Assembly: GCF_000474215.1 (NCBI RefSeq)
Contig: NZ_BAUC01000024.1
Location: forward strand, 1-54,617
Direction: 5' to 3'
Source: Edwardsiella hoshinae NBRC 105699 = ATCC 33379
Lineage (GTDB): Bacteria > Pseudomonadota > Gammaproteobacteria > Enterobacterales > Enterobacteriaceae
DNA: 54,617 bases
Shown: piece after piece, positions 24,350-27,777 of the stretch
How positions within the stretch are numbered: the first letter of the stretch is position 1
Layout: every line of letters begins with the position of its first letter
Made by a program: the position numbers and the translations under genes
Notes under the pieces: generated by a model
Databases searched by the model: none
Seen by the model: the letters and a program-made list of their open reading frames with translations, nothing else
What the model was told of the DNA's origin: nothing

Positions 24350-25483
24350 TTAGCGCTTGCGCGACAGTTGTACGCTATCCTGTTCCCGCGCGAACTCGGC
24401 CAAACGATCGAAATCGCGCCAGGTGTAATAGGCGGCGGGCGTGGGTAGGCGCTTCATCGCATCGCCCGTTAACAGGCGCAACTCACCTAAATCGGCCAGA
24501 TCATAGTGATACAGCCGGGTCGGCAGCATCAGGCGTAGTGGTGGCGCCAGTTCGCCAGGCACCGGTGTCGGCAGGCGATCGACCGCGGTGTCGTAGTTAC
24601 GTTTCAGCACCAGAAATTTCTGCGGCACCGCCTGATGACTGTCCCACCAGCGGCCATCCAGCATGTCAAACTGAAAACGCGTCAATACGGCAGGTTGTGC
24701 CTGGAGCTGGCACAATGCCTGAGGTAACAGCGTCATCATCGCGGCGTTGTATTGCCCCATCGAGGCCAGATGCCCATTCAGGATCAACTGCAACGCCAGG
24801 CGTGTCCCCAACAGATTGGAATACAGATCCTCCGGGGAAAAAGCCGACACTCCCTCGGAAAAGCCACGGATCGACTCGTAACCATACCACTGAGCGATCT
24901 CGTGCCAGGCCGCCACCTGAAATGCCAGCCGCGCCGCCAAGTAGGCCGCCAGAGTATAGCGCTCCTGCGCCTCCATCGGTGGAGTAAAGGCGTTGAACAC
25001 CAGCCAGCGCTGCGCCAACTCATCGCCCAGATCCAACTGAAATGCCTGACCGAGGCGTGGATAGAGTTGACTAAAAATATAGGCCGTCATATCGGCGCTA
25101 TCACGCACATGCGCCATATCGATAAAACCGCCCCGTCGCGTATACAATAGGCCATTGTGTTCATTGCCCAGCCCGGCCAAGCTGGCCAAAGCGCCGAACA
25201 GGCTGTCGTTGTAACGGTGGTTGCCCAGCGTATCCGCTTCAATCACGTTGTTCAGCCGGTAAAAAGGGATCGGAACCCCCAATGCTTCGGCGTTAAGGTC
25301 ATAACCGAAGGCGCAGCAAGGGCGTAAGCCATCCGGGGGCGGCAATGGCGCGCTCACTGGCCAAGCGTGTGTCGCCTGTTGCGGCTGCAACTGCGCCAAG
25401 TCGAGACTCATCGGCAATCCGAAGGCGCCAGCCGTAGCGCTGCAAAGCAGCAGCAACGCGCACCATCCCCGTAGCGTTCCCAT
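24350..25483 (-). CDS. Exported DUF4056-like protein of unknown function
   Basis: The 377-residue protein starts with a signal peptide (about residues 1-20, likely cleaved after ATAGA). It resembles DUF4056 proteins of gamma-proteobacteria; I recognise the family from memory and cannot search. A Cys-Cys pair lies just inside the mature protein (LRPCCAFGYDL). Two acidic/histidine clusters stand out: GFIDMAHVRDSADMTAY (about 115-131) and AAWHEIAQWYGYESI (about 190-204), followed by GVSAFSPEDLYSNLLGTRLAL. The H/D/E residues could bind a metal, but no known catalytic motif such as HExxH is complete. It is the last gene of a three-gene operon; ATG 25483 overlaps the stop of the preceding gene as TGATG. 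It is probably periplasmic. Confidence 0.8.
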   Translation of the reverse strand: MGTLRGWCALLLLCSATAGAFGLPMSLDLAQLQPQQATHAWPVSAPLPPPDGLRPCCAFGYDLNAEALGVPIPFYRLNNVIEADTLGNHRYNDSLFGALASLAGLGNEHNGLLYTRRGGFIDMAHVRDSADMTAYIFSQLYPRLGQAFQLDLGDELAQRWLVFNAFTPPMEAQERYTLAAYLAARLAFQVAAWHEIAQWYGYESIRGFSEGVSAFSPEDLYSNLLGTRLALQLILNGHLASMGQYNAAMMTLLPQALCQLQAQPAVLTRFQFDMLDGRWWDSHQAVPQKFLVLKRNYDTAVDRLPTPVPGELAPPLRLMLPTRLYHYDLADLGELRLLTGDAMKRLPTPAAYYTWRDFDRLAEFAREQDSVQLSRKR

Positions 25484-26616
25484 CAAAACGCCTCTCCCAC
25501 CTGAAAATAAAAGCCGCTGCTCGCACGGCCAATACCATAATCCAAACGAATATTAATGCCCGGCTTAAAGGCAAACCGGTAACCGACGCCGATGGTCGGC
25601 AACCAACGGCTGCTCCCCAGCTCACGCACATTAGGCCCCATGGTGCCGGCCCCCCCCCAAACGACAACGCCATGGCGCCAATTCAGCTTCTGCCGGTATT
25701 CCAACTGCGAACTGATCAAATTACGATCACGATAACGTCCCTGGTAATAGCCGCGCATCCGCTGATCGCTGCCTAGCGATGGCAACATGTTCCATGGTAC
25801 ATCACCCTGGGTAAACTCCCCATCAACCTCCCAGGCCAGCACACGTTGCTCATCCAAAGCATGGTAAGCGCTAAAGCGTGCCATGATGTTATCGAAGCGC
25901 GTATCGCTGCCCACCTCCGGCATGTAGTGGGTATAGCGCAAGCTCGCCAACATACCGCGGCGGGGATTGGGAACGAAATCTCGGCTGTCATACTGAAGTG
26001 ACAGGCTCGGTCCAGAGCTGGATACGGCGCGACCATAAGGGATCTGTGCCAGGCGATCGGTCGACTTGACGTCGGCAGCATGCATCATCGACAGCGACCA
26101 GCCCATACCGACGTACGTCTGGTTCGCCAGACGGTAGAGGACGTCAGGCTGCAAGCGCAGCGACTGCGCCGTGTACTTCTGCCGGCCATCGTCGTCGGCA
26201 CCCGCTCGGAAGCCTTGCCCCCAATAGTAGGTCGGCGTGTCACTGATTCCACCAGTGATAAAAATACGCCACTGATCATCGGCGAAGAAACTGTAGTTAC
26301 GAAGCCCCAAACCGAAAGCGCCGGTCGAGCTGATATAACCGCTGAGGGTGATGCTGGAGTTTTGGCTCACCGTATCCGTCGCATCGGGTCGATAGAGCCC
26401 CGCTACCGCCGCGCCTAACCCAAGCCCCAGCTCGGGATTGAAGAATGGCCCCGGTAACACTCCCCAATCGATCCCCTTGTCGGGGTCGAAACGATCGTCA
26501 CCGCCCAATTGCGTCAACCAGCTATCAACCTGCGCACGTGTCGGTAACAACGCCGCGGCTCCCGCCAACGGCGAGAGCGTGCAGAGCAGAGTCAACCCAC
26601 GCAGGAGATAACGCAT
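25483..26616 (-). CDS. Omp85/BamA-like outer-membrane barrel lacking POTRA domains
   Basis: The 377-residue protein has a signal peptide (cleavage near AGAAA, residues 18-22), a short linker, and a barrel entry segment GPFFNPELGLGLGAAVAGLYRP (about 55-76). The rest looks like alternating beta strands. The segment MRGYYQGRYRDRN (about residues 288-300) resembles the conserved lid-loop motif of Omp85 proteins, and the C-terminal GFYFQVGEAF ends in phenylalanine, as expected for Bam-dependent insertion. POTRA domains are absent, so it is a bacterial-surface-antigen-type barrel rather than BamA or TamA. A run of nine G lies in codons 320-323. It is coupled by TGATG overlaps to both neighbouring genes. 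Confidence 0.82.
   Translation of the reverse strand: MRYLLRGLTLLCTLSPLAGAAALLPTRAQVDSWLTQLGGDDRFDPDKGIDWGVLPGPFFNPELGLGLGAAVAGLYRPDATDTVSQNSSITLSGYISSTGAFGLGLRNYSFFADDQWRIFITGGISDTPTYYWGQGFRAGADDDGRQKYTAQSLRLQPDVLYRLANQTYVGMGWSLSMMHAADVKSTDRLAQIPYGRAVSSSGPSLSLQYDSRDFVPNPRRGMLASLRYTHYMPEVGSDTRFDNIMARFSAYHALDEQRVLAWEVDGEFTQGDVPWNMLPSLGSDQRMRGYYQGRYRDRNLISSQLEYRQKLNWRHGVVVWGGAGTMGPNVRELGSSRWLPTIGVGYRFAFKPGINIRLDYGIGRASSGFYFQVGEAF
25650..25658 (-). repeat. Homopolymeric G9 tract in the Omp85-like gene
   Basis: Nine consecutive G on the coding strand encode the end of Trp320 through the first base of Ala323. The frame is open with nine. Adding one G gives a TAA stop a few codons later. Losing one G shifts into a frame that runs on to about 25299 inside the next gene. 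This is the typical layout of a slippage-prone contingency tract. Confidence 0.95.
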
Positions 26617-27650
26617 CAGAAGCGATACTCTCCGGCGATGAAGAAGCTATTACGCTCGGCGAAGCCCACTTCGGTCGTCAGGTTAAAGTTACGGGTGATT
26701 TCATACTGTGCGCCAATCAGCACGTTCCACGGCGACGACAGATGCTGGCGTACATCGAAGCGACCTTGCCCTTTTGTATTCACCAAATCAATCATTCCCT
26801 GTAGCTCTGACGGCATCGACAGATCGTTAATGTTGCCCTTGAACTCCTGCTGTACATCCTGGTACATGCTGCCGACCCACAGGCTAAGCTTGCCGTTAGG
26901 CAACCCGATGGTATCGATGCCGGGGGTGATGAAGCGGTAACCGACACGCGGCGACAGGGTGAAGGCGTCGATGCTACCGTCGAGAATATCGAAGCGGGTC
27001 TGGGTATAGTTCATATCGACCAGACCGAACCAGTTACCATAGCCGCCGGCGAAAACCGTACCGGCACCGTAGGTAGTTCCCTTAAAATTCAGTTTAAAAT
27101 CGATATTGCTATACAGTGTATGACCATCTCTCAGTAAAACATCGATCTTAGATAGCGAGCTACCTCGCGTATGACCCACTACCCCATAAATATTCATAAA
27201 CGGGAATAGCCACGCATCCAGCTTGATCGTCTCGGTCTTACTCTGTTGACGAGTATTACCCACTTTAATATTAATAAAATCAGATGGTAATGGCACTCCC
27301 GGCAGCCCTGGGAAAGATGGTATTTCTAACCCACTAAAACTAATGCTATCCACCACGATATTCTGGCGCATATTCATATAGTTAACATTAATACCGAAGG
27401 GCTCGGGCAGTTCGTAGCCGCGTGCGCGCGCCTCGTCCCCCCAGATGGGCAACAGCGAACGCTCAACCGGCGACTCGCTAGACTGCGCTGGAACAGAGGA
27501 TTTGCTGCCCGCCGTGTGGGTCTGTTGTGGCAGACCATAGTAAGTAGGGAGAGTGGCACTAACTTCAGACGGGATCTCCTGCGTAGCCGCATGGACAACA
27601 CCGCTCATCAGTACGCCAGACAGGCAGAACAGCAATGCGCGATTATTCAT
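26616..27650 (-). CDS. Outer-membrane beta-barrel protein of unknown function
   Basis: The 344-residue protein has a signal peptide (MNNRALLFCLSGVLMSGVVHA, cleaved after VHA), a Ser/Pro/Gln-rich linker to about residue 65, and then many alternating amphipathic stretches ending in FIAGEYRF. The terminal phenylalanine and aromatic-rich strands indicate a porin-like or receptor barrel. I do not recognise a named family. It is the first gene of the operon; its TGA overlaps the next ATG as TGATG. Around 27060-27380 the DNA is visibly richer in A and T than its neighbours, which hints at transfer or a different selective history. A TGTTATACT promoter element lies about 53 bp upstream. Confidence 0.8.
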   Translation of the reverse strand: MNNRALLFCLSGVLMSGVVHAATQEIPSEVSATLPTYYGLPQQTHTAGSKSSVPAQSSESPVERSLLPIWGDEARARGYELPEPFGINVNYMNMRQNIVVDSISFSGLEIPSFPGLPGVPLPSDFINIKVGNTRQQSKTETIKLDAWLFPFMNIYGVVGHTRGSSLSKIDVLLRDGHTLYSNIDFKLNFKGTTYGAGTVFAGGYGNWFGLVDMNYTQTRFDILDGSIDAFTLSPRVGYRFITPGIDTIGLPNGKLSLWVGSMYQDVQQEFKGNINDLSMPSELQGMIDLVNTKGQGRFDVRQHLSSPWNVLIGAQYEITRNFNLTTEVGFAERNSFFIAGEYRF

Positions 27651-27702
27651 TTTGTTAAGGTGATAAATAATAAATATGGATAGGAATAAAAAGTAGGTGC
27701 GG

Positions 27703-27711
27703 AGTATAACA
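27703..27711 (-). promoter_or_regulatory. Extended -10 promoter of the envelope operon
   Basis: TGTTATACT (read leftward) is a TG-n-TATACT extended -10 element with no good -35 hexamer 17 bp upstream. It is followed by an AT-rich leader of about 45 nt before the ATG at 27650. It lies between the zntA hairpin and the first gene of the operon. Confidence 0.55.
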
Positions 27712-27735
27712 GTAAATGAGTGTAATTTCGTGCAA

Positions 27736-27775
27736 CATAACGTGCGTATCCCCCGCAGGTGATACGCACGTTATG
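27736..27775. terminator. Strong inverted repeat after zntA
   Basis: CATAACGTGCGTATC (27736-27750) and GATACGCACGTTATG (27761-27775) form a perfect 15-bp stem with a 10-nt loop, starting two bases beyond the zntA stop codon. There is no T-run, so it may be a terminator aided by Rho, a 3'-stabilising structure, or an operator for the envelope operon downstream. Confidence 0.6.
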
Positions 27776-27777
27776 AC

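Follow-up and report, generated by a model that had tools for sequence, protein, structure and literature searches.

The protein family DUF4056 has been placed in the Lipocone superfamily, as CapCone-DUF4056, in a 2025 paper (PMC12419801). Active Lipocone members are predicted to remove or exchange lipid head groups that are attached through phosphate, and activity has been measured for PTDSS1/2 and TelC (PMC12419801). The available portions of that paper give the DUF4056 clade, which is predicted to be soluble, no specific function or gene neighbourhood. Also in print, alongside the family assignment, are operons that join the Lipocone families YfiM-Griddle and YfiM-DUF2279 to outer-membrane protein (OMP) barrels and sometimes to patatin-like lipases; these families, unlike DUF4056, belong to another clade and are themselves described as outer-membrane proteins (PMC12419801). 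Here, we describe a DUF4056 gene of Edwardsiella hoshinae NBRC 105699 = ATCC 33379 that lies in an operon with genes for two predicted outer-membrane barrels: B1, which is of no named family, and a member of the Omp85 superfamily. The operon is found on contig NZ_BAUC01000024.1, of which a stretch of 54,617 nucleotides was analysed (the window). We give an even chance to the reading that the three genes form a module for envelope lipid remodelling or turnover, in which DUF4056 would be the predicted head-group enzyme and the two barrels its partners.

Three open reading frames (ORFs) of 344, 377 and 377 amino acids (aa) lie on the minus strand of the window and overlap at both junctions. The TGATG overlaps from which a three-gene operon was originally predicted, at 26616 and 25483, are seen in the sequence. 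The features are as follows:

26616..27650, minus strand: gene 1 (B1), putatively exported 344-aa protein of no named family, predicted to fold as a beta barrel of about 10-12 strands (from the ORF and a structure model)
25483..26616, minus strand: gene 2, 377-aa barrel of the Omp85 superfamily, apparently without POTRA (Pfam Omp85; R288-G289-Y290)
24350..25483, minus strand: gene 3, DUF4056 (CapCone-type Lipocone), putatively exported, predicted lipid head-group enzyme, 377 aa (PF13265; motif residues)
26614..26618, minus strand: TGATG stop/start overlap of genes 1 and 2, shared base 26616 (sequence)
25481..25485, minus strand: TGATG stop/start overlap of genes 2 and 3, shared base 25483 (sequence)

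What does the third gene encode? Its product, first described as DUF4056-like, is in fact a full DUF4056 protein, which matches PF13265 with 420 bits (4.6e-126; cut-off 23.6). CapCone proteins are marked by a Gly six residues before the H2 His (-6) with an xD motif at -4, by S/GxxSxx ahead of the H4 Asp, and by an Asn that stands at +4 from this Asp and is preceded by a small residue (PMC12419801). The window protein has G119, D122 and H125 for the H2 His mark (position 121 is I/L), and S213xxS216xxD219 and N223 for the H4 Asp mark. Across 125 full-length DUF4056 ORFs (123 distinct; a 126-aa fragment of locus L184 was excluded), the G, D and H of the first mark and all residues of the second are present in 125/125, and so are H194-E195, on the helix before the H4-Asp motif; residue 222 is S in 123 and A in two. 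The motif residues are also invariant in 26/26 of a smaller set. Three residues of an RPCC sequence, R54, C56 and C57 (window 24353-25483, protein residues 54-57), are invariant in all 125 ORFs as well. The structure model is helical and has the motif residues at helix ends; the four-helix core with a cap that marks Lipocones is a candidate reading of this model. The window protein thus shares its PF13265 match and motif residues with the published CapCone-DUF4056 clade, whereas the link to B1, to a POTRA-less Omp85 and to acyl hydrolases is added by the present analysis. The original prediction had held that none of the three proteins has an assigned function. For DUF4056, this no longer applies to the superfamily chemistry, which has been predicted, but it does hold for a family-specific role, at least as far as the available text of PMC12419801 goes.

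Distant DUF4056 genes have been proposed to encode type VI secretion effectors, and a DUF4056 ORF of Salmonella pathogenicity island 6 (SPI-6) has been called an effector candidate (PMC11669294). Short divergent DUF4056-like ORFs that stand after hcp and before a gene for a small hydrophobic protein, in loci L185 and L187, are in keeping with such a role. The window protein, by contrast, has an export-signal-like start (export signals were judged by eye throughout) and neither an Hcp nor a small immunity-like neighbour; its PF13265 score is 420 bits, whereas the ORFs of L185 and L187 reach 21-22. The type VI reading is disfavoured on these grounds; we regard it as highly improbable and have set it aside for the window copy. 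The short ORFs of L185 and L187, and a third in L125, have no obvious export signal and are each followed by a small hydrophobic protein (L187:5935-7488, L185:5904-7580 and L125:6282-7393), and the gene preceding the ORF in L185 and L187 encodes an Hcp (PF05638); these look like type VI effector-immunity pairs. In G324, DUF4056 looks split into two frames (G324:C1:1672397-1673178), and an intact second DUF4056 lies elsewhere in the genome.

Where might DUF4056 act? Asp at position +2 is a lipoprotein retention signal. A rough lipobox pattern, which misses some likely cases (e.g., L095), fits 62/125 DUF4056 ORFs, and none of them has Asp at +2. In many relatives, DUF4056 is apparently a lipoprotein, probably sited at the inner face of the outer membrane. 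In the proposed mechanism, the protein would reach the periplasm, being in many relatives a lipoprotein at this face, and its Lipocone site (His125, His194/Glu195 and Asp219) would release or exchange a head group joined to lipid through phosphate. The substrate would most likely be a glycerophospholipid, and both barrels would be outer-membrane partners made together with DUF4056.

The conservation of the three genes was first considered in 60 relatives, with a presence threshold for Omp85 of E at most 1e-20. B1 is found in 17 of these genomes, DUF4056 in 18, Omp85 in 17, and all three in 16; the single-gene exceptions are DUF4056 in G304 (weak in G340), a weak B1 in G162, and Omp85 in G334. 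When weak matches are treated as absent, the co-occurrence of B1 and DUF4056 is 16/0/1/43 (Fisher p ~1e-13, with kinship ignored). A second sample, made up of the best 80 of 146 confirmed loci and hence biased to close relatives, has all three genes in one cluster in 74 cases, including L103, with a divergent Omp85 only, and three loci with apparently split genes (Omp85 in L037, B1 in L075 and L084). The other six comprise three loci with DUF4056 alone, one with B1 and DUF4056, and two at a contig edge. After correction of start positions, overlaps of 1 or 4 bases were found at 56/65 measurable B1-Omp85 junctions and 49/64 measurable Omp85-DUF4056 junctions of these 80 loci. Because such overlaps recur, the coupling of the genes goes beyond chance.

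In a broader sample of the order, PF13265 matches occur in 50/394 genomes, 45 of them strong, and neighbourhoods were compared for 42 of these strong carriers, the genome of the window, G038 and G321 being left aside. All three genes stay together in 37/42 loci, G166 having a divergent Omp85. Their order varies: B1-hydrolase-DUF4056-Omp85 in 12, B1-Omp85-DUF4056 in 10, B1-DUF4056-Omp85 in seven and Omp85-B1-Omp85-DUF4056 in five, with three single arrangements. The remaining five loci have DUF4056-dgkA (two), Omp85-DUF4056 (one), or B1 and a hydrolase without Omp85 (two). Same-strand module junctions, counted if under 1000 base pairs (bp), measure at most 59 bp in 99/99 cases and at most 30 bp in 91/99; longest ORFs were used, so that overlap is overstated. 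Clustering that persists through rearrangement of the genes speaks more strongly for a shared task than one overlap does. A conserved, tightly coupled envelope operon is supported by the 16 of 60 relatives and 37 of 42 loci, and genes that lie mostly apart, which would have refuted the original prediction, were not seen. DUF4056 occurs in 9/299 genomes of a phylum sample (own genome included), all of the same order, and in 4/369 of a class sample (own included), where the other three are from other orders and have weaker, partial matches; none was found in 14 named control genomes, E. coli among them.

Which genes accompany the module? An alpha/beta-hydrolase lies within it in 15/42 loci of the order sample (two Pfam-confirmed, the others assigned by similarity), and a slightly wider lipobox pattern fits 11 of these 15. 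A patatin follows DUF4056 in L163, and a FadL-family barrel does so in L188, with a homologue in L189. In L127 and L182, dgkA is directly downstream of DUF4056, at 3 and 4 bp, and an eptA-dgkA pair is found no more than 5 kilobases (kb) from the module in L126 and L179. These neighbours (alpha/beta-hydrolase, patatin, FadL-type barrel and dgkA) fit lipids and favour the lipid reading. In other lineages, an acyl hydrolase of the alpha/beta-hydrolase or patatin kind would join the module. The original prediction had made DUF4056 the periplasmic partner or substrate of a putative surface complex of the two barrels; a role as mere partner or substrate is probably wrong, given that the Lipocone motif residues are kept and that the module attracts lipid enzymes.

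The dgkA gene deserves separate comment. DgkA recycles diacylglycerol made by EptA-type enzymes, and eptA-dgkA pairs have been described in Vibrio (PMC12064563, available portions). Such a pair, an envelope enzyme coupled to DgkA, is what lies near the module in L126 and L179; EptA differs from DUF4056 in being an unrelated sulfatase-fold transferase, and the window has no such neighbour. Since the DUF4056-dgkA pair has no eptA among its labelled neighbours, diacylglycerol is suggested, by analogy, as a DUF4056 product, and DgkA could recycle it. Overall, dgkA was found in 36/45 carriers and is single-copy in the genomes of L126, L127, L179 and L182; in the other 32, no copy was found near DUF4056 on one contig, a check limited by draft contigs.

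Several points weigh against a lipid-remodelling module. The link to dgkA is seen in only 4/45 carriers, in two arrangements, and the four genomes are not independent cases because all belong to family f4. The genome of the window has its dgkA on another contig, and the window module has no hydrolase neighbour and a DUF4056 that does not fit the lipobox pattern. The DUF4056 model matched no solved structure, no measured DUF4056 activity or structure was found in the literature, and the motif reading depends on the definitions of a single paper (PMC12419801). Among nine outlier genomes, picked as pattern-breakers, B1 is found in seven and Omp85 in five, Omp85 not being found in the other four at the threshold given above; G304 and Budvicia have DUF4056 without either barrel at the thresholds used. 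The DUF4056 enzyme can therefore stand without barrels. DUF4056 also lies apart from the barrels in G243, G671 and a Klebsiella pneumoniae genome. Thus, while a conserved, coupled envelope operon emerges from the tight coupling, the fixed stoichiometry that had been read from it does not.

A further difficulty is that TelC, a measured relative, acts on lipid II and not on phospholipid (PMC12419801). Might DUF4056 act instead on sugars linked to polyisoprenoids or lipopolysaccharide, releasing or attaching surface polysaccharide? The cleavage of lipid II by TelC would agree with this, as would the polysaccharide roles suggested for several Lipocone families (PMC12419801) and the heptosyltransferase-like gene that adjoins the module in L126. 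The recurring neighbours, however, are acyl hydrolases and dgkA, and just one glycosyltransferase-labelled neighbour was found among 42 loci, although this label was sought with one seed and others may have been missed. We consider a sugar-linked substrate improbable.

The second gene encodes an Omp85-type barrel, apparently POTRA-less, as was originally recognised. Its match to Pfam Omp85 (2.2e-11, 44.3 bits, cut-off 24) takes up residues 141-377 of the 377, so that a POTRA would hardly fit in front of it; no POTRA is apparent from protein length and domain matches, and there is an additional weak match to OMP_b-brl. The match to NCBIfam NF047779 (Omp85_fam) is 5.7e-24 and 85.3 bits, below the cut-off of 200. 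Loop 6 of the Omp85 barrel carries an RGY/F motif. This motif is present as R288-G289-Y290 and is invariant in 26/26.

An Omp85 barrel without an N-terminal domain, as gene 2 apparently encodes, defines the noNterm class, for which a role in membrane-protein biogenesis has been suggested (PMC4104836); the partners of gene 2 point to lipids instead. By analogy, the gene 2 protein could either open sideways for lipid or help to assemble B1. Carried further, the second option would make Omp85 a helper in assembly that chiefly serves B1, with DUF4056 as a lesser passenger of the operon. The biogenesis role suggested for the noNterm class is consistent with this, and so are G166 and the Klebsiella genome, where a B1-Omp85 pair is separate from DUF4056. 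Yet DUF4056 stays in the cluster across many gene orders and never loses its motif residues, and G228 and G381 have B1 where no Omp85 of the gene 2 type was found. Such a division of roles appears distinctly improbable.

A number of other Omp85 genes were encountered. A second, divergent copy lies 5' of B1 in the same cluster in L188, L190, L191, L192 and L194, and also in L090, L091, L097, L099, L109 and L110. An Omp85 of the gene 2 type at L123:5692-7592 has neither B1 nor DUF4056 nearby; a 247-aa protein without a Pfam match is encoded 5 bp 3' of it. In G1035 (Klebsiella pneumoniae, the genome of L104), the Omp85 ORF beside B1 contains an in-frame TAG (C1:4987266-4988390), and DUF4056 is sited elsewhere.

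In type Vd secretion, PlpD combines a patatin domain, POTRA and a barrel in one chain. The window module resembles PlpD in that an Omp85-type barrel is tied to a lipid-acting enzyme, predicted in this case; it differs in having separate genes, no apparent POTRA and another enzyme fold. Gene 2 was rejected as a PlpD (type Vd) protein, its 377 aa having only Omp85-type and weak OMP_b-brl matches. Could one or both barrels carry DUF4056, with the hydrolase where present, to the surface or outside, in a split form of this Omp85 secretion? The Omp85 superfamily does include translocators (PMC4104836), and the DUF4056 gene is translationally coupled to that of the Omp85 barrel. Against export, gene 2 has no apparent POTRA, a lipobox pattern that fits roughly half of the relatives of DUF4056 points to membrane anchoring, and some genomes have DUF4056 but no Omp85, so that we hold this alternative to be unlikely.

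Within the lipid module, the contribution of B1 may be that of a channel, a docking site or a lipid-binding barrel. B1 had been predicted as an outer-membrane barrel of no named family, and this is upheld: no Pfam family exceeds the cut-off, the nearest being OMP_b-brl (E 0.015, under cut-off), which also matches weakly in 15/32 relatives. The AlphaFold2 model is a beta barrel with 11 strand elements and a mean predicted local distance difference test (pLDDT) value of 84.4. The solved barrels ranked highest by VIA are a designed 10-strand barrel, OpcA and omptins, a likeness at fold level only. The outer-membrane enzymes omptin, LpxR, PagL and OMPLA have an invariant catalytic His. No His is invariant in B1 (H303 is conserved in 28/32 relatives), which rules against each of these four, and B1 is therefore unlikely to add another enzyme of a type known from the outer membrane. 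Larger proteins that have a B1-like match but fall in no Pfam family are found at L163:11273-12979 (568 aa) and L129:5374-6936 (520 aa).

Two further features concern gene 1 and the region before it:

27076..27375 (about), minus strand: AT-rich, variable-loop section of gene 1 (41.3% G+C)
27651..27777, minus strand: upstream region of gene 1, candidate promoter site (near-identity in two Edwardsiella species, by eye)

The AT-rich section had been noticed in the original prediction, and the lowest 300 bp of the gene indeed has 41.3% G+C compared with 57.1% for the window, with only 6/2173 sliding windows lower. In two named Edwardsiella relatives G+C also falls at this place, though more mildly (0.46-0.52 versus 0.56-0.58 for the gene), which disfavours a foreign insert; in G+C profiles from eight relatives, some of the others have no clear dip there. 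Divergence of loops is the likelier cause, judging from the B1 alignment, because the section overlaps the most variable barrel loops. The stretch before gene 1, nearly identical in the two named Edwardsiella species, may carry a promoter. A consensus scan gave 2 promoter-like sites versus 2.7 in shuffles, none of them in 27651..27777, and a terminator scan (7 versus 3.9 in shuffles) found none convincing after the last gene. A P-type ATPase gene, named by eye, adjoins the operon in the window and also in 5/80 loci, from two Edwardsiella, Hafnia alvei, Serratia rubidaea and Edaphovirga, with flanks of 6 kb at most checked. The window DUF4056 protein is 83% identical to the copies of Edwardsiella piscicida and E. 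ictaluri, with which flanking genes are shared.

The literature search, which did not extend to the neighbourhood source data of PMC12419801, found no functional study of the operon and no description of the module. A more ambitious version of the lipid reading, which we think rather unlikely, is that of an outer-membrane phospholipid turnover machine beside Mla and PldA, in which DUF4056, on the periplasmic side of the outer membrane, would remove or exchange the head groups of phospholipids and would act with a POTRA-less Omp85 that handles lipid instead of protein, a surface-exposed B1, return of diacylglycerol through DgkA, and optional acyl hydrolases. Short of this, DUF4056 is now placed in a conserved gene neighbourhood, with predicted catalytic residues that do not vary and with a few likely substrates. 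If the lipid reading is true, it would suggest lipid, and not protein, as what a POTRA-less Omp85 handles, and Enterobacterales would have a further way to adjust the lipids of their outer membrane. A family of unknown function, DUF4056, is thereby given a testable job.

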